Positions 2,893 through 31,782 of a DNA stretch of 31,846 bases are shown here, one piece after another. The notes beneath the pieces were generated by a model that was not told the origin of the DNA, did not search any database, and saw nothing but the letters and a program-made list of their open reading frames with translations. Each line of letters begins with the position of its first letter. Position 1 is the first letter of the stretch. Source of the DNA: a virus; the IMG/VR virus record IMGVR_UViG_3300037502_000200, positions 1 to 31,846 of that record; one strand, given 5' to 3'. A program made the translations under genes and the position numbers.

Positions 2893-3232
2893 TTTCTAGA
2901 AGCCACTCTGTAAATTCCGGATTCGCTTGTAATACGAGCGGGATCGTATTCTCCCAGATTCCGATAAAGTAATGCTCCCACTCCTCATAGTCGGCTTTCT
3001 TCGGCCTCTCAGTCTCGAAAACAAAACGGATAGCGTGGAGTATTTCGTGAAAGACAACTGTTCTTTTCTTGCTCTCAGGGAGATCTCGGTCAATGACGAT
3101 AATGTTTCGGGCATCTTGGGTATAGCCATAACTAGAATCTGTGAGTAGTGCGTCATCTTTGGAGTTGAGTTGGACAATGCGAAACTCTTGGATACCGATT
3201 TTGATAGCATCAGGACACCTTAGTTTCTTCAT
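2882..3232 (-). CDS. zincin-like metallopeptidase
   Basis: A 116-residue protein with a zinc-protease signature, HEILH, at residues 62-66, followed by a glutamate-rich helix (YEEWEHYF) that may supply the third ligand. The layout matches short zincin-like proteins found in many phages: beta strands, then VFHEILHAI, and a C-terminal NPEF segment. Such proteins lack a signal peptide and act inside the cell; their substrate is unknown. The gene lies among small early genes, suggesting a host-takeover or counter-defence role, which is inference. It starts 23 bases inside the upstream gene. Confidence 0.7.
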   Translation of the reverse strand: MKKLRCPDAIKIGIQEFRIVQLNSKDDALLTDSSYGYTQDARNIIVIDRDLPESKKRTVVFHEILHAIRFVFETERPKKADYEEWEHYFIGIWENTIPLVLQANPEFTEWLLENDR

Positions 3233-7075: not shown

Positions 7076-7417
7076 CTAAATTAGATAGTTCGGCGGATCG
7101 GCTTTTATCTTCTCCCCTGCCTCGGTCAATGTATACCAAGTCATCTCTACTCGGTCGTAATAGGGATGATCGAAGCTATCCCATTGACCTAACTTCCAGC
7201 CCATATCCCGAGCTTCTCCGGCTACTGCCGAATCCGACTCCATCGCATAGTTTAGGTAAGCGCAGACTCTGAGGAGGTTATCGAACCGGTCTAAGAGCTT
7301 AGAGCTTCCCATTCCTCGATTCCGGCGATGGTGAGTTTGTAATCCCTCGGTAGCGCCACAATGCGGGCAATAAGGATGAGCCTCTACTGCCCGCTTTAGC
7401 GCCTGTGTTCGATTCAA
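7076..7417 (-). CDS. HNH-like protein
   Basis: A 113-residue protein. It opens with a CPHCG zinc knuckle (residues 17-21), then LQTHHRRNRGMGSSKLLDR near residues 26-44, the HH core of an HNH nuclease. A later segment DNLLRVCAYLNYAMES gives the second half. The typical final H or N is replaced, so activity is uncertain. The only start joining the upstream gene is TTG at 7417, overlapping the previous stop as TTGA. It lies between recombination and replication genes. A homing or recombination-associated nuclease is possible. Confidence 0.65.
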   Translation of the reverse strand: MNRTQALKRAVEAHPYCPHCGATEGLQTHHRRNRGMGSSKLLDRFDNLLRVCAYLNYAMESDSAVAGEARDMGWKLGQWDSFDHPYYDRVEMTWYTLTEAGEKIKADPPNYLI

Positions 7418-9223: not shown

Positions 9224-9272
9224 ACCTTATCTTCTCCCCTGCCTCCGACATTTTTGATTCTAGGCTGTTGAA
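9224..9272. promoter_or_regulatory. divergent promoter region between exonuclease and whiB
   Basis: A 49-base gap between diverging genes. On the minus strand TAGAAT (9262 to 9257) matches the -10 consensus in five of six positions. On the plus strand TAGGCT (9261-9266) fits the actinobacterial TANNNT -10 box. The two boxes overlap on the palindrome CTAG. The plus-strand box lies 6 bases before the GTG of the whiB-like gene, so that transcript may be leaderless. No good -35 is visible for either. Confidence 0.45.
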
Positions 9273-19655: not shown

Positions 19656-20456
19656 TTATTCTACCTGCATCGAACTTATTAGCTGATAAATACTAGGTGG
19701 ATACTTATAGCCGGCCTGTTGCCAGAGAAGGTCATTTACAGCGGGGTAAGTAGTAGATAACCTTCGATCTACCTTCTCGGTTATCTTCGGGATAATTGTC
19801 AGGTCATCCCTGCCTAGCCTTTCGGCTATCGCCATAATTAGCTCATACTTTGTTACCCAACCCAGGGGTATAAGGTGCTGAGTTCCCGCTATAAAGTAAT
19901 TCTGCTCTAGGAGGCCTCTAACTACTTCGGCAAAGGCATCGGTTGTAACTCCATTCCAATAGTGATTTATAAAGCCGTAAATAGTCGCGCCTCTAGGCTG
20001 ATTTTTTACCCACTCAAAGAGGCTTTTCTTTCCGGTTAGCTCCGATCCAATAATCGAGGTTCGAAGATTCATCCAATCGGTAGCCTTTACTTCTCCCTTG
20101 ATTTTAGAAACCCCATAGGAATCGGAAGCATCTTTCTTACTATGCTCCGAATACCAGCCATCTTTACCGCTATAGGCGCAGTCGGTAGCTATTTGGATTT
20201 TATAAGTTTGCGGATAGTTTTTTATAAAATGCGGAAAATCGCTATTTATCTTTTCCTGTAAATCCGGATTTGTATTCTTCTGCGGAATAATTCCGATGCA
20301 ATTTATAATTACATCCTCGGACTTTAGGCCGAATCTATCTAGAGAATCAAAGGCCTCATATTCTTCTCGAGTAGGCGCTATTAGATCAAAGTCGGAGAGC
20401 TTATCTACTAAGCGGTGGCCAAGCATCCCCGAAGCTCCGAGGATTAGGACTTTCAT
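19656..20456 (-). CDS. dTDP-sugar reductase-like (RmlD/SDR family) protein
   Basis: A 266-residue short-chain dehydrogenase-type protein. LILGASGMLGHRLV at residues 3-16 gives the GxxGxxG nucleotide-binding loop. SYGVSKIKGE near residues 108-117 carries the YxxxK catalytic pair. NCIGIIPQ and ATDCAYSG fit the RmlD (dTDP-4-dehydrorhamnose reductase) group. It is last in a three-gene sugar cassette and its ATG overlaps the upstream stop (ATGA). It probably completes a nucleotide sugar for the two transferases, but the sugar is not known. Confidence 0.8.
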   Translation of the reverse strand: MKVLILGASGMLGHRLVDKLSDFDLIAPTREEYEAFDSLDRFGLKSEDVIINCIGIIPQKNTNPDLQEKINSDFPHFIKNYPQTYKIQIATDCAYSGKDGWYSEHSKKDASDSYGVSKIKGEVKATDWMNLRTSIIGSELTGKKSLFEWVKNQPRGATIYGFINHYWNGVTTDAFAEVVRGLLEQNYFIAGTQHLIPLGWVTKYELIMAIAERLGRDDLTIIPKITEKVDRRLSTTYPAVNDLLWQQAGYKYPPSIYQLISSMQVE

Positions 20457-21163
20457 CTAAGAGCCTTCGCTAGTTGCCTAATTTGCTCAATGCCTTCTGT
20501 TCTATCCTGAGCAGAGATTGAAGCTCCGGATAGAGTTACTCGATCGTAACCGCGGTCATAGACAATTCGTATCTCAGAAGTCCTGTATGGCTTTACTAGA
20601 CCAGTTTTCCTCATAAGTAGGGCTAAACCCCAATCTGCGAATCTTATGCCTTCTGGGAAGCCACCAGAGGCCTCCCAGAGGTCTTTAGTCATTGGGTTAG
20701 CTCCTCCTAAATCAAAAGTGTGATTTAGATCGTCAGCTACCCAATTTGTATAAAGGATATGGTCACTACCCTTAGTCCTAATAGCATCACAGACTAAATT
20801 AGATCCGCGCTTTTCAGCCTCGAGAATAGAATTTATCCCTTTAGGTAAAAATTGATCATCGACATTACAGATAGCTACCCACTTAGTTGAACATAGTTTT
20901 ATAGCTAAATTCCAATACTCGGCGTAGTTTTCTAGATCTCTTTTTACGACCTTAGTTATCGACCAGTCTTGAACACTCTCAAATACCGCAGGATAGTTTT
21001 TACTATCCGTAACTATTACTATCTCATCCGGTTTAGTTTCTAGGGATAAAACCCCATCCCACCACTGCTCTAGGAACTTAGAGTATCCCTCTCCCCAAAT
21101 AGCTAAAGGTAGCCCAATGGTTACACGAGGGTTTTTAGGAAGGGAAGCCAATAGTGATTCCAT
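20453..21163 (-). CDS. GT-A family (GT2-like) glycosyltransferase
   Basis: A 236-residue transferase with a GT-A fold. RVTIGLPLAIWGE near residue 13 gives the first strand, PDEIVIVTDSKN the second, and NVDDQF near residue 95 the metal-binding DxD-like motif. Late residues GFPEGIRFADWGLAL match the donor or acceptor side of GT2-like enzymes. It starts 43 bases inside the previous gene. The likely role is adding a sugar to a phage protein or lipid; the target is not known. Confidence 0.8.
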   Translation of the reverse strand: MESLLASLPKNPRVTIGLPLAIWGEGYSKFLEQWWDGVLSLETKPDEIVIVTDSKNYPAVFESVQDWSITKVVKRDLENYAEYWNLAIKLCSTKWVAICNVDDQFLPKGINSILEAEKRGSNLVCDAIRTKGSDHILYTNWVADDLNHTFDLGGANPMTKDLWEASGGFPEGIRFADWGLALLMRKTGLVKPYRTSEIRIVYDRGYDRVTLSGASISAQDRTEGIEQIRQLAKALR

Positions 21164-22323
21164 ACTTTTACATTATCGAATTGCTGAGCGAACTTCCTCG
21201 AAGTCTCGGAGTATCTGCCTTCGGACTTCGATACCTCATAAGCGTTTTCTAGCTGAGTAATAATAGAAGCGATGTAGGGAGTTTTCCACCAAGCAATCTG
21301 CGCCTCATCCCAAGATAACTGGCCTTGAACCTTGAAGCCATCTTCGGCTACTAGATCTCTTGGCCCAGTCCAATCTGTTCCGATTACTCGAGTCCCACAG
21401 GCCTGAGCCTCAATTATTGGAATCTCAAATCCGCCTCCGAGGGATAGCTGTAAAGCTACATCGGCGGCGGAATAGAATCCCGCTAGGTCTTTAGGATCCA
21501 CTCCTAGTCGATAGTCGATTGGGTCAGGGAAGATAACTGCCGATAGGTCTAAACCGCAAGCCTCCGCAAGTCTAGGAAGATGGAAGCCTCCATAGATTCC
21601 TTTAGGTTCAGTATGGATATAGAGATAAGCATTAGGCACTTTCTTCCTAAAAGCGGCGAAAGCCATAAGAGCTTCACCAAATGCTTTGCGGTGAATCGAC
21701 TTATTAGCTTTATTAGCGGAGTTCATTACTACTAGAAAATCGTCATCCTTTAGCCCAAGAAATTCTCTAGCATCTTGCTTACCAATTTTTTCGGTCGGTT
21801 TGAAGGTGGAGATCGTATCTACTGAGTGAGGGATGTATATACCCTCGATTCCAACCTCGGTCATTTGCTCGAGACCGAAGGGAGACATCGCGATGGGAGT
21901 TACATTATCTTTCTCGAGCCATCTCTTTACCGCAGGGGGCATAGAGATATGGTCTAGTGGAACCCAACTTAGGATATTAGGAAACTCCTCGGTAGGCCAC
22001 ATCTCGGGCTTTAGAACCCAGACATCGCAAAGAGTAAGGATGTAATCTTTCCAATCTTGCTTACTCATCTGCAACTTGTGTGCAACTGCTAGGGCATCTT
22101 GAGACATCGGCTCATAACCGCGGGCATAATGAGGGATCTCTCCATAGGGAGTTTTATGTGTCGAGTTATTACCCTCGAGTCCATAATTCGAGACATGGGC
22201 TACATTTACCGAGTGCTTAGCTAAGTTATCTACTACCTGCCCTATTTGCATCCCATAGCCGGTTGGCTGATAGGGAGAATTTGAGAAGGTGGTAATAGTT
22301 AGATCTAGATTTTCTACTTTCAT
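21121..22323 (-). CDS. GT4-like (GT-B) glycosyltransferase
   Basis: A 400-residue glycosyltransferase. TGYGMQIGQVVDNL near residues 21-34 is the sugar-nucleotide loop of the first Rossmann domain. GGGFEIPIIEAQACGTRVIG near residues 294-313 is the GT4 signature with the E-x7-E pair. PHSVDT and FYSAADVALQLS in between are also typical. It is first in the cassette after the capsid terminator, so it may need read-through or a separate promoter. Candidate target: capsid or tail. Confidence 0.85.
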   Translation of the reverse strand: MKVENLDLTITTFSNSPYQPTGYGMQIGQVVDNLAKHSVNVAHVSNYGLEGNNSTHKTPYGEIPHYARGYEPMSQDALAVAHKLQMSKQDWKDYILTLCDVWVLKPEMWPTEEFPNILSWVPLDHISMPPAVKRWLEKDNVTPIAMSPFGLEQMTEVGIEGIYIPHSVDTISTFKPTEKIGKQDAREFLGLKDDDFLVVMNSANKANKSIHRKAFGEALMAFAAFRKKVPNAYLYIHTEPKGIYGGFHLPRLAEACGLDLSAVIFPDPIDYRLGVDPKDLAGFYSAADVALQLSLGGGFEIPIIEAQACGTRVIGTDWTGPRDLVAEDGFKVQGQLSWDEAQIAWWKTPYIASIITQLENAYEVSKSEGRYSETSRKFAQQFDNVKVWNHYWLPFLKTLV

Positions 22324-23962: not shown

Positions 23963-25452
23963 TAGTTCCTCTTTAGTAGTAGGTCAAGTTGCTTACGCTT
24001 TAGGTCTAGTAGAGAAGGCTCTTCTACCTTTTCCTCTTCTACCTGCGGAGTAGGGGAAAGGGTATCTACAACTTTCTTGATAATCTCGGATTCTTCCTCG
24101 GTAAGGTTAGCGCCTTCCTCGAGCTTTAGAACTACATCGGCAAGAGTATCGGCATCTACTCCGGTGCGGATAGCGAGTTTATCTAGCGCTCTTACACTTG
24201 CTTCGGTTTCCTGATATGCGGGGAAGCTCACGATTGAGACCTCAAATAGTCTTACAGACTTTAGGGTTCGCTGAGTCATCTCAGTATTCCAAGCATCGCG
24301 CTTTACTGAAAATCCAAAGCTCATTTTAGATAAGTCACCGCGGCGGAGCAGTTCTGCCATATCGCGGCCATCGGTCGTATTAGGGAGATCGGCCTCGACT
24401 CTTAGGCCTTTCTCATCTTCCATTAGTCGGAGAGTTTTAGCTCGAGATGAAGCTAGAACCCTTCCGGTATCGTGATTTACTAATAGCTTTACATCATTCC
24501 GGCTCTTTAGCGAACTTCTAAAAGCTCCTGGCTCGATAGTCTCGACAAATCCGCCTAGATCTTCGGAAGGCGAATTGAACCTTGCGGCATAGCCAACAAA
24601 GGTCATTCCTTCACCTTGTTGCCGAATCTCAAAATCGGCGTCAAAGTTTCTCTGCTCTTGTTTCATTAGCGCTCTTTCCTGCTCTGCTTCTAGTCTAGTA
24701 ACAACACCTTCGGCATATGCTTGCGCACGCCGAGCAGATCTTTTAGAAATACCTCCACCCCATAGAGCCATAGCTACAACTCCTGGCGATGGGAAGTTAT
24801 CGGAGTTAGGGTTAGCATCGGGAGAATCTAGATCTACTATGTGCCTAGCAATCCAAGCGGCTATTCTCTTCCACTTATCGGCGGATACTGTTCCTTCCGC
24901 CATTAGTCGAGCTTCTCTAATAGTTCGATCTACTAGACCATCTCCGCCTAATCCTTCGGAATACCACTCGAGGCCTCTTCTCGCGCTAGCGCGCATATAG
25001 CTAGGGGCTTCTAGATTTACTTGTCTATTTTCCCTGTCCTCTAGAGAATCTATTTTTGTAAGAGTAGAAAATTTATGTCCTACTAAAGTATCCGTTTCTT
25101 CCCATCCCTCTGAGCCTTCTCGCCAAATTCTAATAAGAGCTGCTGGATCGTCGGGAGTTCCAGTAATAACTACGGATGAGTTAGGAACATCTATCTCTCC
25201 ATCTCTAACTATGCGCTCGATTTGTCCCCTAGCCCTGCCGCCCGAGGAGTTCCAAGATACAAAATCGCCAAGTTCAAGACTATCCGGAGTAGCTCTTTCT
25301 CCGCCTGGCTCCATACCTTCGGAGATAGAAACAGCAACCATTTGATCGATAGCAGATTGCTTAGTGTTATGGCAACCGATAACTTCTCCATCGGCCTTCT
25401 CGACAGCCCAACCATCGCAATCGGGATTGGTATCAGAAATAAAATATGGCAC
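23962..25452 (-). CDS. multidomain prohead protease
   Basis: A 496-residue protein, far longer than a typical prohead protease. Domain 1 (residues about 1-48) has MPYFISDTNPDCDGWAV and KQSAIDQMVAVS. Domain 2 (about 55-137) is Tudor-like (LGDFVSWNSSGGRARG). Domain 3 (about 150-255) starts YMRASARRGLEW and includes MALWGGG. Domain 4 (about 268-420) is the HK97-type serine protease, with H327 (VNHDTG), S378 (KMSFGF) and E404. A Glu/Lys-rich tail follows. It matures the capsid by removing the delta segment. The first three domains also occur with phage head proteases, from memory; their role is unknown. Confidence 0.88.
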   Translation of the reverse strand: MPYFISDTNPDCDGWAVEKADGEVIGCHNTKQSAIDQMVAVSISEGMEPGGERATPDSLELGDFVSWNSSGGRARGQIERIVRDGEIDVPNSSVVITGTPDDPAALIRIWREGSEGWEETDTLVGHKFSTLTKIDSLEDRENRQVNLEAPSYMRASARRGLEWYSEGLGGDGLVDRTIREARLMAEGTVSADKWKRIAAWIARHIVDLDSPDANPNSDNFPSPGVVAMALWGGGISKRSARRAQAYAEGVVTRLEAEQERALMKQEQRNFDADFEIRQQGEGMTFVGYAARFNSPSEDLGGFVETIEPGAFRSSLKSRNDVKLLVNHDTGRVLASSRAKTLRLMEDEKGLRVEADLPNTTDGRDMAELLRRGDLSKMSFGFSVKRDAWNTEMTQRTLKSVRLFEVSIVSFPAYQETEASVRALDKLAIRTGVDADTLADVVLKLEEGANLTEEESEIIKKVVDTLSPTPQVEEEKVEEPSLLDLKRKQLDLLLKRN

Positions 25453-26855
25453 TAGCCAAGCCTCGCTTCCACAATTATTGTTCCACCTAAAGCAACTGCC
25501 GAGCCATTTATAGTTATGCCTCCGGCATTTAGATCTAGAGAAATACTTTGGGTTTCCGCTGTATAAATAAGCGGAGAGCTAGCGGTAATAACTCCCGATG
25601 GGCCTTGCGGGCCAGTAGCTCCGGTAGCACCTTGCGGCCCAGTCGCGCCTTGTATACCTTGCGGGCCTTGAGGACCAGTTGCGCCAGTAGCGCCGGTTGC
25701 CCCAGTCGGGCCAGTATCGCCGGTATCTCCCTTATCGCCTTTATCTCCCTTATCGCCCTGTATGCCCTGTATTCCTTGCGCTCCCTGTGCGCCTTGTGGG
25801 CCTGTTGCTCCGGTTGGCCCAGTATCCCCTGTATCACCTTTCGGGCCTTGGATACCCTGCGGGCCTGTTGCACCAGTTGCTCCAGTTGCTCCGGTGTCTC
25901 CCTTATCTCCCTTTACGCCTTGCGCGCCTTGAGGCCCAGTCGCTCCGGTTGCACCCGTCGCTCCGGTATCGCCTTTATCGCCTTTAGGTAAGACAAAGTT
26001 TAGAGTTTGACTAGGCGCTGTTCCAGAAACTGTTACCGCGGCAACTGTTCCACTAGTAACTGTTCCGACAGATAAGACTGTGGGTTGCCCTAAGACTGTT
26101 TCATTTACCCAAAGATTAGTTGCCGTGTCATAAACAAGCGATTGCCCATTAGTCGGACTTGTGATTTTTACATTATGTAATTCTTCTAGTTCATAGCCAT
26201 TCTGAATATTTACATAAATTACGCCGTTATTTTGATTAGATCTTACGCAATAGCCGATAAAAACAGCGTTGTCGGGTGCGGTTGGCTTTGTCGAAGTTAG
26301 GCCACCTGGGACTGTAGGAGAAAGCCATACCGCTGCGCCTTCGGTTAGGGCCAGCGTGTTTATGTTGCGAACAAGTCCAAAGGTTGCAGCAAAGCCTTTG
26401 TTTCCACCGCTGATTGTCTCTGCCATAACTGCGATAGTTTTAGAGCTTGCGGCTTCTGTGTTTCCCTGTGCGTATGCAACAAGTTTGTTGTTCCCGTCTG
26501 ATCCTGTAACATAAACAGCCTTACCCTTAGTGCGCTCGCTACCATCCGAAGACTTTGCCAAGATGAAAAGCTCTTGCCCGACATTCTGATTTACAGTCGG
26601 GGTCATGCCTAGCTCTAGGGTTTTATCGGCATCATTCCAGCCAATGCGACCTACTTGGATCGAGGGAACAGAATTTACATTGAATTGGATATAGGCAGGT
26701 TCGGCGATTGCGGTAGCGCCAATGATGTTATCTATTAGCGTTGCTTGATTTTGATTTACAGTCGCGCTAAAAGTTCCACTAGTCGTAATAGTTGCGGTGT
26801 TTGGCGCCGTAACTTCGACAATGCTAGTACCGCTAGTAACTCTTATTACACTCAC
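25452..26855 (-). CDS. collagen-like head fibre or decoration protein
   Basis: A 467-residue protein in three parts. Residues 1 to about 290 form a beta-rich N-terminal domain; about 291-421 is a collagen-like Gly-x-y repeat ([13 protein letters not shown] and similar); about 422-467 is a short beta-rich end ([19 protein letters not shown]) that may trimerise. Collagen-like stalks form trimers outside the virion. It lies between the portal and protease genes, so a head fibre or decoration is likelier than a tail fibre, although that is inference. Translation couples to the 115-residue gene upstream (ATGA). Confidence 0.8.
25593..25985 (-). repeat. collagen-like Gly-x-y coding repeat
   Basis: About 131 codons of glycine triplets with frequent GATGPQG, GPQGIQG and GDKGDTG blocks. 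The repeats are similar at DNA level, so they could expand or shrink by recombination. Many Asp-Lys pairs should stabilise a triple helix without hydroxyproline. Confidence 0.9.
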
Positions 26856-28554: not shown

Positions 28555-28696
28555 TTCGCCTCTCTAGCGCTAAACCGAATAGGACAGCGAATACCCCTAG
28601 AGTCATAATCCCGATAGGTAGATAAATTAGGCCTACACCTAAACTAATTAGCGCCGCTCCCGCAATTTGAAGCCCTATTACTAATTTAGAAAACAT
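28544..28696 (-). CDS. small membrane protein between terminase and portal
   Basis: A 50-codon frame. It begins MFSKLVIGLQIAGAAL, stays hydrophobic to about residue 44 with a break at residues 22-28 (two short membrane helices), and ends LERRNAK. It overlaps the terminase end by 11 bases and the portal start by 11 bases, filling the gap exactly. Membrane genes at this place are seen in some actinophages; the function is not known. Confidence 0.6.
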   Translation of the reverse strand: MFSKLVIGLQIAGAALISLGVGLIYLPIGIMTLGVFAVLFGLALERRNAK

Positions 28697-30197
28697 AGAC
28701 ACCTGGGGTAAGTTGTTCGGGTTCTATTCTACTTGTAGTCGCTCTATCGAAGGCAATTACGGCAGATACAGCCGCATCTATCCTCCTCGAGGATGCTCTA
28801 TTCTCTTTCACTATTCTTACTCCTAGATTGTCGGTTTTTACTACAGCATTAGAAAGATGCCTGGCTAGTAAGGGATCTCCATCTTGTATTACCCTGCCCT
28901 CGACTACAGCATCAAAGAATTTCGCACACGCCGGCACCATGCGCCTCGCATTAGTGGAAGGATACTCCACTATTGGGTAGCCCTCCTCGGCTAGAACCTG
29001 CATTGAGCGTTGCCAGCGGTAGGGGTCGCAGACTATCTCTTTTACATTAGGATTCGCTGCGACAAACTCCCTAATCTTGTTTTCGACATCGAGGATATCT
29101 ACACGCCAAGTATCATCGTGGATATTCGGGTCTTTCTCCCAGGCTTTTATCATAAAGATTTGCGGAGTCTCTTCGATAGTTACTCCGACTAGAACAGTCG
29201 AGTCACCCGAGAAAGAGCCATCAAATCCGATTATGTAGTCTTTATCTTTTAGATCTACCTCTCCGGCGCAAGCCTCCCAAGAGCCTGTAGGTAGCCAACT
29301 AATAGCACTAGATACCCATTGACCACATCGCTTAGTTCTAAATTCTGGCTCGGGAGTTCTTCTAACTGCCGACTCAAAATCTTCGGCGGAACAGATATCG
29401 CCGTAGCCTGGGTTAGAAATCTCCCAAGTTTCCGGTAGTCGGTGGTCTGCTTCTATAGGTGCTTCCCAAGAGGCCATAAAGAAAGTTGGATCTTCAATCT
29501 CTCCTCTAGCGATTCTCTGCCCATACTGGTAGAGAGTAAATGCGATTGAGTCCTTGCCGGTGCTATCGGTGCGCACTCCTGGGGTAGTTATTGCTATAAG
29601 CGTTGCTAATCGACCTCTTGCTCCCATAGCTAGAGACATAACATCGAATAGCTCTCGATTAGGTTGCGCGTGAAGCTCGTCAAAAATTACCGCCGAAGGG
29701 TTTAGACCTTCCTTCGAATATGCCTCCGCCGATAAGACTCGATAGACAGATCCAGTAGAGGGAACTTCAATAGCATCTCTATAAAGTCTGGTCATAGAGC
29801 TAAGCTCTGGCGATGCTTCGACCATACGCTTTGCATCCGAGAAAACAATTCGAGCCTGTTCCTTTTCTGCGGCCACCGAATAAACCTCATTACCGCCGCT
29901 TCCTCCTCCGAGGATAAGAGAGTAGAGTCCAAAAATAGAGCCAAGAGCGGACTTGCCATTTTTGCGCGGCATGAGAACTAGTGAGATAGCGTGTCTATAT
30001 CCATTTTCATCCCCTGCGAAGATGTTTCTAATTAGCTCTTTCTGCCAGTCTCGCAGTATTAGCGGCTCTCCGGCTCGACCGGCTATCGAATCTTTAGTAA
30101 TAATCCCGAAGGCTTCGGCAAAGTCAATTACTAGCTCACCCTCGCCAGACTCAATTAGATTCGGCGGAACTGGGGTTAGCCATTGTGGAGGCCACAC
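28686..30197 (-). CDS. terminase large subunit
   Basis: A 503-residue packaging motor. The Walker A-type motif is PRKNGKS at residues 77-83 and the Walker B is IFDELHA at 171-177. TTPG near 204-207 is the coupling motif. The nuclease half has FDGSFSGD near 325-332, a second Asp at 390 (VCDPYRW) and a third at about 473 (RRIDAAVSAV). Start GTG at 30197 follows AAAGG. It overlaps the small subunit by 47 bases. All catalytic residues seem intact. Confidence 0.95.
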   Translation of the reverse strand: MWPPQWLTPVPPNLIESGEGELVIDFAEAFGIITKDSIAGRAGEPLILRDWQKELIRNIFAGDENGYRHAISLVLMPRKNGKSALGSIFGLYSLILGGGSGGNEVYSVAAEKEQARIVFSDAKRMVEASPELSSMTRLYRDAIEVPSTGSVYRVLSAEAYSKEGLNPSAVIFDELHAQPNRELFDVMSLAMGARGRLATLIAITTPGVRTDSTGKDSIAFTLYQYGQRIARGEIEDPTFFMASWEAPIEADHRLPETWEISNPGYGDICSAEDFESAVRRTPEPEFRTKRCGQWVSSAISWLPTGSWEACAGEVDLKDKDYIIGFDGSFSGDSTVLVGVTIEETPQIFMIKAWEKDPNIHDDTWRVDILDVENKIREFVAANPNVKEIVCDPYRWQRSMQVLAEEGYPIVEYPSTNARRMVPACAKFFDAVVEGRVIQDGDPLLARHLSNAVVKTDNLGVRIVKENRASSRRIDAAVSAVIAFDRATTSRIEPEQLTPGVYVF

Positions 30198-30639
30198 GCT
30201 TTGCCTTTCTTGCTTGCAACTCTTCTAATTTACTCATAGCTTTTACTTCGGCTACTCCTAGCTTGCTTCGATCCGCAGGAGTAAAGCCTAAAAGACTTAG
30301 ATTAGAGATTATTAGTCGATCTAGTTCCCTAAGCCCGCGGCGTAGTCTTGCGTCATCGGTGCTCATAACCTTTACTCTGAGATTCCAACGCTCATCGACT
30401 AACTCGCAGGTCATAAGTAGGAGTTCATAGTCGGTATTAGCTGAGATCCAACTAAGGCCGTAAGCCCAGACTCGATCCCATAGCTCTTGTCCATACTTTA
30501 GAAGCGGTCTAGTTGGCTCTGGTATTTCATTTGATTTTGGCAGAACCTGAATCGCATCGGCTTTTGGAAGCGCCCGCTTGCCAGGGTTTCCTAATAAGCG
30601 CTTTTGCTCTATCGGTTTAGATGGCCTTCCCGCTGGCAT
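30151..30639 (-). CDS. terminase small subunit (P27-like)
   Basis: A 162-residue protein that recognises the packaging site. It opens with MPAGRPSKPIEQKRLLGNPGKR, the basic, Gly/Pro-rich start of P27-type small terminases (residues 1-22 with the GNPGKR mark). A middle helix region (LSWISANTDYELLLMTCELVDE) and SLLGFTPADRSKLG follow. ATG overlaps the Mom gene stop (TAATG). Confidence 0.88.
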   Translation of the reverse strand: MPAGRPSKPIEQKRLLGNPGKRALPKADAIQVLPKSNEIPEPTRPLLKYGQELWDRVWAYGLSWISANTDYELLLMTCELVDERWNLRVKVMSTDDARLRRGLRELDRLIISNLSLLGFTPADRSKLGVAEVKAMSKLEELQARKAKRVASTMANPSSAESN

Positions 30640-31292
30640 TATTTCTCACTTAGAGCGGTTGGCTGGAATTGCACCGGCACTTCGGTAAGGGAATTACCGC
30701 GGCTTACTTCTAAGCCCTCAACCGCATTTGGATAAGGCAGGGCTAGCTTAGCTAATCTTCTGCGGAATTGCTTATCTAGTGGGTAGATATATCTAAATTT
30801 TCCTGGGGATACCCGCGTAGGCGCTATCGAGCGCTCTTTATGGTGATAAGCGCCTCGAGTATGAACCCATCTTCCGCCAATAAAATACTCGGTTACTGGA
30901 TTAGAGCTACCTGTAAAGATCCAGTTTCCGGCCTGATAGATTCCTCCCTTATGGCCTTCCTTCGGATCTGCAAAAGAGATAACACATCGCAGACCAGGAT
31001 TTGTCTCTTTTAGTATTTTGAAAGATTCGGCTAATAGCTGGCTTACTGGGGTTTTGTGCTTATCTAAGGCAACTCTAGTTAGTTCGCATAATTCGGTTTG
31101 GTCTAGCTGTAGTGCTGTTCCGAGATGCGGAGAAGCTCCTCGACTAAAGATAATAACTCCGATAAATTTGCTCTCCTCGAATACGCCGATCTTGACTAAC
31201 TTTCCAGTCGGCAGGATTCTCGAGTAATGCCAATTCTTTACCGCAAATTCCGCAGCTTGAGCATTTACTAGCTTTAGCTCAAACAATCTCAA
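30639..31292 (-). CDS. mom: Mom-like DNA-modification protein
   Basis: A 217-residue protein resembling the phage Mu Mom family, GNAT-fold enzymes that convert adenine in DNA to N6-methylcarbamoyl-adenine (momA) and so block many restriction enzymes. Visible marks: NWHYSR at residues 20-25, GVIIFSRG at 45-52, ELCELTR at 67-73, SFADP at 106-110 and HKGGIYQAGNW at 114-124. A His-rich AYHHKER follows. It overlaps the ParB-like gene by 14 bases and stops on the small terminase start. Expression with terminase suggests late modification just before packaging, as in Mu. The assignment is good; the exact modification is inferred. Confidence 0.82.
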   Translation of the reverse strand: MRLFELKLVNAQAAEFAVKNWHYSRILPTGKLVKIGVFEESKFIGVIIFSRGASPHLGTALQLDQTELCELTRVALDKHKTPVSQLLAESFKILKETNPGLRCVISFADPKEGHKGGIYQAGNWIFTGSSNPVTEYFIGGRWVHTRGAYHHKERSIAPTRVSPGKFRYIYPLDKQFRRRLAKLALPYPNAVEGLEVSRGNSLTEVPVQFQPTALSEK

Positions 31293-31782
31293 AACCCTTA
31301 GCAGTCTGCCTAAACTCGCATCCGCATTGTGGGCAACTTATGCTATTCCGCTGATCGAGTCTCGGAGCATCGGCTTCTGTAAATAGGTCATCCGGCATCT
31401 CTAGATTCTTTATCTCAAATCCCAATTCGGCTAGTGGGATAGAAGTTAGCTTTAGCTCCTGTAGCTGAGCATTTAGAACCTCGGTCTCCCAAGAGGCTAA
31501 TTCTGCGGTGCGGTTATCTGCTAGGGCATAAGCCTTTATGCGGTCGCTATCCCAATCCTCGGGAACTCGAACAATATCTATCTCTTTCCATCCGAGGCGC
31601 TTAGCCGCTTCGATCGTGCCGTTACCGGCAACTACTACGCCATCGGCGGTTACTACTATCGGCTTTCTTTGCCCGAACTCTCTTAGGCTAGCCTCGATAG
31701 CTCTTAGATTCTTTTCATCGTGGGATCTAGCATTAGCCGGATCTGGGGTTAGATTCCCTATAGCGATGCGCTCGATTTTCAT
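31279..31782 (-). CDS. ParB-like nuclease-domain protein with zinc-knuckle tail
   Basis: A 167-residue protein. PDPANARSHDEKNL near residues 13-26 and VVAGNGTIEAAKRLG at 50-64 are the two main boxes of the ParB/sulfiredoxin-type domain. The C-terminus carries CPQCGCEF at 150-157, one zinc knuckle. Short ParB-domain proteins in phages commonly accompany DNA-modification genes. The gene is first in the leftward late operon, with AAAGG before the ATG, and it overlaps the Mom-like gene. A DNA-sequence-guiding or regulatory partner for Mom is likely but inferred. Confidence 0.8.
   Translation of the reverse strand: MKIERIAIGNLTPDPANARSHDEKNLRAIEASLREFGQRKPIVVTADGVVVAGNGTIEAAKRLGWKEIDIVRVPEDWDSDRIKAYALADNRTAELASWETEVLNAQLQELKLTSIPLAELGFEIKNLEMPDDLFTEADAPRLDQRNSISCPQCGCEFRQTAKGFEIV

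Follow-up and report, generated by a model that had tools for sequence, protein, structure and literature searches.

The 31,846-nucleotide (nt) virus record IMGVR_UViG_3300037502_000200, analyzed over its whole length (the window), contains a gene for a relative of Mom, the DNA modification protein of phage Mu, and an element resembling tRNA-Gly(UCC) is nested in the 3′ end of this gene. Similar elements, mostly with a glycine anticodon, recur at the same place in mom genes of other phages and of bacterial genomes. We propose, with a probability of about 70%, that a parB-like gene, mom and the tRNA-Gly element form a cassette by which the phage supplies both the enzyme and the RNA that carries its donor, Mom using glycyl-tRNA. 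It is also probable, if slightly less so, that this represents an aminoacyl-tRNA-dependent DNA modification, with a dedicated, translation-evading and partly D-arm-less glycyl-tRNA encoded within the gene for the enzyme by which its glycine is moved to adenine in DNA. The original prediction, made from the window sequence, had described a ParB-like and Mom-like pair ahead of the terminase genes and overlooked the tRNA-Gly element, which is the main feature of the region.

The identity of the mom open reading frame (ORF) as a Mom protein related to that of Mu is secure from sequence comparison. The profile search proposed as a check of this assignment matched Pfam PF25680 with an E value of 4e-46, far above chance (157.7 bits, cut-off 27.1; residues 4 to 188 aligned to profile positions 2 to 201 of 202), together with phrog_1384 (E 3.9e-53) and Mu Mom itself (8bv8, E 7.6e-14). 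The motifs from which the gene had been named (NWHYSR, FSRG, SFADP and HKGGIYQAGNW) are all found in the translation. By structure, the AlphaFold model, with a mean predicted local distance difference test (pLDDT) of 86, matches 8bv8 with Z 19.1 and a root mean square deviation of 3.1 over 187 aligned residues, GNAT acyltransferases coming next at Z of ca. 12. The folded GNAT core spans approximately residues 1 to 189, and pLDDT falls below 50 only at residues 191 to 217, which is weak evidence since few alignment rows cover this tail. Residues H22, Y23, E70, R73, S106, D109, Y119 and Y168 are near-invariant in the 106 mom clusters described below and are common to Mu. Also shared with Mu is S84, a position occupied by S or T in 104 of 105 letters, and we infer that it aligns with S124 of the inactive mutant S124A in 8bv8. 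The homology makes the previously suggested anti-restriction role likely. As in the com-mom system of Mu, the gene upstream overlaps mom; that gene is the zinc-finger gene com in Mu, whereas in the window it is a ParB-fold gene whose tail has one CPxC pair.

ARAGORN reports a single tRNA in the whole window, a tRNA-Gly(UCC) at positions 30653 to 30725, on the mom strand. Residue 188 is the last one in the Pfam match, and the element, directly behind the Mom core, starts at about residue 190 of the translation. Covariance model R1, which had the window in its training set, scores the element at 87.1 bits (E 2.1e-18). Folded alone, its RNA has the cloverleaf as the minimum-energy structure (z −2.5; 4 of 200 shuffles fold equally well), with 20 of 21 stem pairs formed and one mismatch in the T-stem. 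The identity set for bacterial glycylation is described as G1-C72, C2-G71, C35, C36 and U73 (PMC9976931). The window element carries all of these bases, as well as G3-C70, and the identity bases are all invariant in alignment A3; C35 and C36 are invariant in A4 too, as are the corresponding two C residues in A6. The usual tRNA core has U8, G18-G19 and U55, where the window element has A8, A18-G19 and G55, and the Rfam tRNA model gave no match to it at the gathering score. On account of this core and of the Rfam result, we class it as tRNA-Gly-like.

The recurrence of the element was assessed in mom loci (numbered with the prefix L) obtained with the window protein (26 loci), with a profile (the best 80 of at least 591), from bacterial genomes (33) and from named phages (17). 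The first viral scan relied on one peptide pattern within the element's own translation, but the later profile scans did not. The 157 mom copies fall into 106 clusters at 90% identity. In L144, L145, L148 and L152, the hidden Markov model match lacks the mom C-terminus. A plain cloverleaf scan of the mom 3′ end, blind to the anticodon, reached the threshold score of 11 in 78 of the 106 clusters; 69 of these 78 have the glycine anticodon NCC, and 68 of the 69 also have U73. The same score was reached by 46 of 525 dinucleotide shuffles, one with NCC and none with U73 (the shuffles came from 105 clusters, L133 being too near the contig end for the scan), and by 335 of 1444 other ORF ends of the same loci, 26 with NCC and three with U73 (ends of loci with two mom clusters were counted twice). 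At the stricter score of 17, there remained 47 of 106 mom ends (46 NCC) versus 0 of 525 shuffles and 8 of 1444 other ORF ends (2 NCC), and one of these two NCC hits is the opposite-strand tRNA-Gly of the Microbacterium phage Appa, i.e., its own element.

For covariation analysis and model building, 56 of the 69 scan elements with a glycine anticodon were used, in three classes: class I with the full cloverleaf (24 rows), class IIa (18) and class IIb, without the D-arm (14). The other 13 were dropped for having other lengths, being near-copies or showing misplaced gaps (L002, L018, L118 and L126 in class I; L057, L067, L096 and L107 in IIa; L083, L089, L098, L103 and L153 in IIb). Two-sided (compensatory) changes are found at 16 of 21 pairs in class I, 15 of 21 in IIa and 11 of 17 in IIb, with 98.6, 97.9 and 97.9% of the cells paired, respectively. 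These covariation measures were reached by 0 to 1 of 500 shuffles, a control that does not preserve relatedness; sliding the pairing partners, which does preserve it, brought pairing down to 27 to 48%. Folding and pair counts show that the class II T-stem has an invariant bulged A on the 3′ side rather than a G.A mismatch; with this bulge, all five T-stem positions pair in 18 of 18 IIa and 14 of 14 IIb elements. Each of the 41 class II scan elements has this A.

The covariance models were searched against 100 loci (637 kb, E ≤0.05; L133 and L154 excluded) and recognized 82 distinct places. Eighty of them are at a mom 3′ end, in 79 of the 100 cluster-representative loci, 23 of which were outside the training sets; the remaining two, both in L030, coincide with ARAGORN tRNA-Met and tRNA-Trp genes. 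Elements missed by the plain scan were recovered in L003, L015 (weak, with E 3.6e-4 from one model only), L031, L033, L079, L095, L117, L127, L141 and L142. A chance origin of the elements is ruled out by the shuffles, the control ORF ends, the slid pairings and the 80 of 82 covariance places at mom. When the class IIa model was applied to 20 whole bacterial genomes, scoring the best 150 candidates per genome, 14 of 20 hits were located directly behind mom. Elements are scattered across a 94-row clade of the Mom tree (104 rows in all), which holds the window and has 13 rows labeled element-less (labels were set by hand per locus, so both tandem copies are labeled). Outside this clade, one of 10 rows has an element, Psychrobacter phage vB_PmaS_Y8A (L153), the position of whose long branch is unsure. 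Behind mom this phage has two tandem D-arm-less tRNA-Gly-like elements (3093 to 3157 and 3165 to 3230 of the locus); ARAGORN reported no tRNA in the stretch, and the genome paper states that no tRNA genes were identified (PMC10434257).

Some loci depart from the simple arrangement. Tandem mom copies in L014, L055, L061, L079 and L094 have the element behind the downstream copy and none behind the upstream one (from the scan only in L061). In Salinibacter phage B2_17 (L004) and in L033, mom is split across reading frames in the record, and the tRNA-Gly element is retained. A strong element ca. 4 kb upstream of a mom was seen in L157 (1501 to 1573, corresponding to G019:C46 6920 to 6992), between ORFs whose translations read as HNH-like and TerL-like.

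Phages often carry tRNAs, and the element could in principle be an ordinary phage tRNA that aids the translation of phage genes; ARAGORN calls nine elements tRNA-Gly among the 26 loci found with the window protein, and positions 18-19 are GG in 14 of 25 class I elements (AG in the other 11). We consider this explanation very unlikely, since the window has this one ARAGORN tRNA and since the elements stand repeatedly beside mom with a glycine anticodon. Their form also speaks against it: among the 69 scan elements, the D-arm region is only 11 to 13 nt long in 19 and A stands at position 8 in 62, the wobble position 34 is U in 43, A in 21, C in three and G in two, and class II has the bulged A. 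CCA is encoded in 42 of the 69. If charging and not decoding is under selection, one would expect the glycyl-tRNA synthetase (GlyRS) identity bases to be conserved, as they are here, with drift in the wobble base and in the tRNA core. Among nine class I relatives, 18 pairs were compared without gaps. Nucleotide similarity is in all 18 higher in the element than in the 180 nt of mom before it; the translated element is less similar than the core in only 9 of 18, so that the protein side of this comparison is equivocal.

The mom frame is open throughout the element in 55 of the 69 cases, stops inside it in 10 and stops before it in four. Where the stop codon follows the element, cutting it out would truncate the mom mRNA, and one may think of a processing or regulatory signal, at which cleavage by RNase P or Z detaches mom from the terminase mRNA or restrains the synthesis of Mom, with no glycine donated. 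The location between mom and the small terminase gene, on the same strand, agrees with this, as does the translational control of Mu mom by Com (PMC6483171). Such a signal needs neither a glycine anticodon nor U73, yet both are the rule in the scan (NCC in 69 of 78, 68 of these with U73), and in Appa the element is on the strand opposite to mom; we regard the processing signal as unlikely, and prefer the use of glycyl-tRNA by Mom.

From the homology of Mom, the position, structure and covariation of the element, its glycine anticodon and GlyRS identity bases, and its linkage to mom, we infer the following course. Host tRNA processing would cut the tRNA-Gly out of the mom mRNA, and host GlyRS would charge the excised element with glycine. 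Mom, with its GNAT fold, would take glycyl-tRNA instead of an acyl-coenzyme A (acyl-CoA) and attach the glycine to the N6 position of adenine in the phage DNA. By a rearrangement, in which the glycine amine attacks C6 and the original N6 becomes the amide, this would yield the known product N6-carbamoylmethyl-adenine, a glycinamide. Owing to the altered or absent D-arm, the bulged A of the T-stem and A8, neither EF-Tu nor the ribosome would take up the element. The ParB-like protein would act as a DNA-binding partner, and Moms without an element would draw on host glycyl-tRNA. For Mu, the title of Swinton 1983 names the product alpha-N-(purin-6-yl)glycinamide.

That Mom takes its glycine from glycyl-tRNA is suggested because the identity bases are kept while the core drifts, and because there are precedents in TacT and in Staphylococcus aureus. 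TacT also has a GNAT fold; it acetylates the glycine on the tRNA and has no DNA substrate. It recognizes Gly-tRNAGly by U73 and G71 (PMC9976931). One could accordingly imagine Mom as a TacT-like enzyme that attacks translation through glycyl-tRNA itself and acts not, or not only, on DNA. This is most improbable given the full-length homology to Mu Mom, including the presumed S124A serine (S or T in 104 of 105), and a toxin would not need a dedicated target RNA of its own. As to Mom drawing on glycyl-tRNA as a donor, S. aureus provides a parallel, keeping a non-proteinogenic tRNA-Gly with weak EF-Tu features and an altered D-loop and T-stem that feeds the non-ribosomal glycyl transferases FemXAB for the cell wall (PMC4052509, PMC9976931). 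There, the acceptor is peptidoglycan and not DNA, the enzymes are others (PMC4052509, PMC9976931), and the alterations differ (A49-U65, A51-U63, and UU or CU at 18-19; PMC4052509).

Several points weigh against a glycyl-tRNA donor. A GNAT fold usually means the use of acyl-CoA. Direct acyl transfer would lead to N6-glycyl-adenine, so that the extra rearrangement has to be postulated, and with the frame open across the element in most cases, ribosomes would cross it. The passage on the Mom donor in a review assumes an acyl-CoA, “such as glycyl coA” (PMC7824862). GlyRS of Thermus thermophilus also reads C50-G64 (PMC9976931), a pair that is not kept in class II elements. The covariance models found no element in 21 of the 100 loci, which would need host Gly-tRNA; these include Mu, the sole one whose product is known to us, where neither a tRNA nor a covariance match was found in 3.2 kb around mom. 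Other element-less loci are phages JD024, Listeria A511, Staphylococcus phiSA_BS1, Proteus ASh-2020a, Salmonella FSL SP-049, Enterococcus phiEf11 and vB_EfaS_159 and Microbacterium BarnCat, six Pseudonocardiaceae loci, Yersinia, Serratia, and L115, L131, L137 and L139. The sample is moreover skewed to window-like Moms, and the share with an element is not the share among all Moms. Among the 20 hits in bacterial genomes, five lie in ordinary tRNA clusters (four Gly, one Arg), so that ordinary tRNA genes are scored by the models too, and one is the tRNA-Gly-like element of L157, ca. 4 kb upstream of the mom of L137. The proposal comes from sequence and structure computation.

The features of the mom region are listed in Table 1. 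As originally predicted, the ParB-like and Mom-like genes are on the minus strand and overlap, by 14 nt, and mom directly precedes the gene of the terminase small subunit, with an overlap of 1 nt; the large subunit gene follows. Only 64 nt of the contig lie ahead of the ParB-like gene, and IMG/VR places the record in its linear class, which often means a fragment.

Table 1. Features of the mom region in the window
Feature	Position	Strand	Basis
ParB-fold gene, 167 amino acids, C-terminal CPxC motif; first gene of the visible operon	31279..31782	-	phrog_620, AlphaFold
mom ORF, 217 amino acids, TTG start	30639..31292	-	PF25680, 8bv8
tRNA-Gly(UCC)-like element in the mom 3′ end, mom residues ~190-213	30654..30725	-	ARAGORN, covariance model, fold
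Anticodon UCC of the element, positions 34-36	30690..30692	-	ARAGORN, alignment
Terminase small subunit	30151..30639	-	phrog_83 E 3.6e-16; Pfam Terminase_7 E 1.9e-6
Terminase large subunit (TerL)	28686..30197	-	phrog_9 E 2.3e-114; TerL_ATPase E 2.1e-19

The ParB-like protein matches phrog_620 (E 1.1e-38) and the N-terminal part, but no more, of phrog_498 (E 9.9e-34); Pfam ParB_N gave 21.3 bits, under its cut-off of 26.3. The best matches of its AlphaFold model (mean pLDDT 88) are CTP-binding ParB domains, in complex with a CTP analogue or CDP (Z 15.8 for Myxococcus xanthus ParB, and 15.7), followed by sulfiredoxin and free serine kinase. The model thus points to a ParB N-terminal fold in a 167-residue protein with a short CPxC tail. 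A total of 42 window ORFs, a subset of all, were scanned against PHROGs and/or Pfam, and no ParA was named among them, in a contig that may be partial. The pairing with mom is conserved: in 66 of the 69 element-bearing loci that could be scanned (L018, L057 and L086 had no usable upstream ORF), the ORF before mom matches phrog_498 in 66 and phrog_620 in 65. For the tandem loci L014, L055 and L094, the ORF before the first copy was taken, and in L002 and L004 the ParB ORF was picked by hand, L002 having one small gene between it and mom. A ParB-like gene adjoins Mom by annotation in Appa, phiEf11, Y8A and Wyborn, and by match in B2_17; in Arthrobacter phage Sonny, it is near mom with one small gene between. 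An invariant C-terminal LD...CPxC motif, possibly half of a zinc site, is common to the Mom-linked ParB-like proteins at the mom junction (alignment A10, with the window protein and 38 relatives).

The annotation of phrog_498 is DNA methyltransferase, and the only scanned window ORF that matches it is the ParB-like protein; as the match covers just the N-terminal part of the family, domains of this ParB-like type seem to be found repeatedly next to DNA-modifying enzymes or fused to them. The original prediction had also noted the absence of an adenine methyltransferase gene, and indeed no methyltransferase family was otherwise matched in the 42 scanned ORFs, but that Mom is the sole defense against restriction does not follow from a subset of the ORFs in a linear and possibly partial contig. 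The link that it drew between mom and packaging genes is recurrent without being universal. The terminase small subunit leads the first downstream ORFs of 66 element-bearing loci (phrog_83 in 15, phrog_309 in 10 and phrog_57 in six), with “Rnase E” in eight and minor tail in seven (one member may match more than one family; L021, L056 and L094 had no downstream ORF), and no annotated terminase was found within ca. 4.5 kb on either side of mom in Sonny and Appa. That DNA would be modified as it is packaged is a suggestion read from gene order.

Elsewhere in the window, two glycosyltransferase-like genes and an RmlD-like gene are located between the major head gene and the head-tail connector genes (19656 to 22323), and a protein with tail-fiber and collagen-like family matches is encoded between the portal and head-protease genes (25452 to 26855). 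A 24-nt direct repeat, 92% identical, is found at 7105 to 7128 and 9227 to 9250, 2.1 kb apart. A G+C profile, a repeat search and the ORF list of L011 gave nothing decisive.

tRNA genes are common attachment sites, and the element could also be the remnant of one, namely a copy of a host tRNA-Gly gene at which the phage integrates. The case that favors this is also the prior notice of the parB-mom-tRNA-Gly arrangement, which was described in 2011, without a function for the RNA, in the ssrA islands of Dehalococcoides (McMurdie 2011, PMC3146451). These have parB, mom and, embedded in mom, a 76-bp tRNA-Gly-like locus, reported in 16 islands and one marine fosmid, that was treated as part of the integration module and as a primer target, with no link to Mom chemistry in the passages on it (PMC3146451). 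The locus was placed in the first 150 bp of the fifth gene (PMC3146451), which may be the same mom 3′ end, since the genes are on the reverse strand. An attachment remnant is nevertheless extremely unlikely. The insertion site in Dehalococcoides is ssrA and not a tRNA-Gly gene (PMC3146451), no integrase-named family was matched in the 42 scanned window ORFs, and a copied host tRNA accounts neither for full cloverleaves with compensatory changes nor for the D-arm-less forms. Our literature search found no statement of tRNA use by Mom, although preprints and most subscription journals were outside its coverage and publication elsewhere is possible.

In the sole passage on it that we found, the source of the Mom donor is assumed rather than shown (PMC7824862). 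With a glycine tRNA built into the enzyme's own gene, this question can be tested directly, and a glycyl-tRNA donor predicts a one-pot assay and a distinct nitrogen-labeling pattern. In addition, the elements are a large natural collection of minimal bacterial tRNAs, in part without a D-arm, that can escape standard gene finders, as in Y8A. If the proposal is true, a DNA base modification would be drawn from a charged tRNA, which would also explain the glycinamide product of Mu Mom, and charged tRNAs would feed DNA modification besides proteins, cell walls and lipids.

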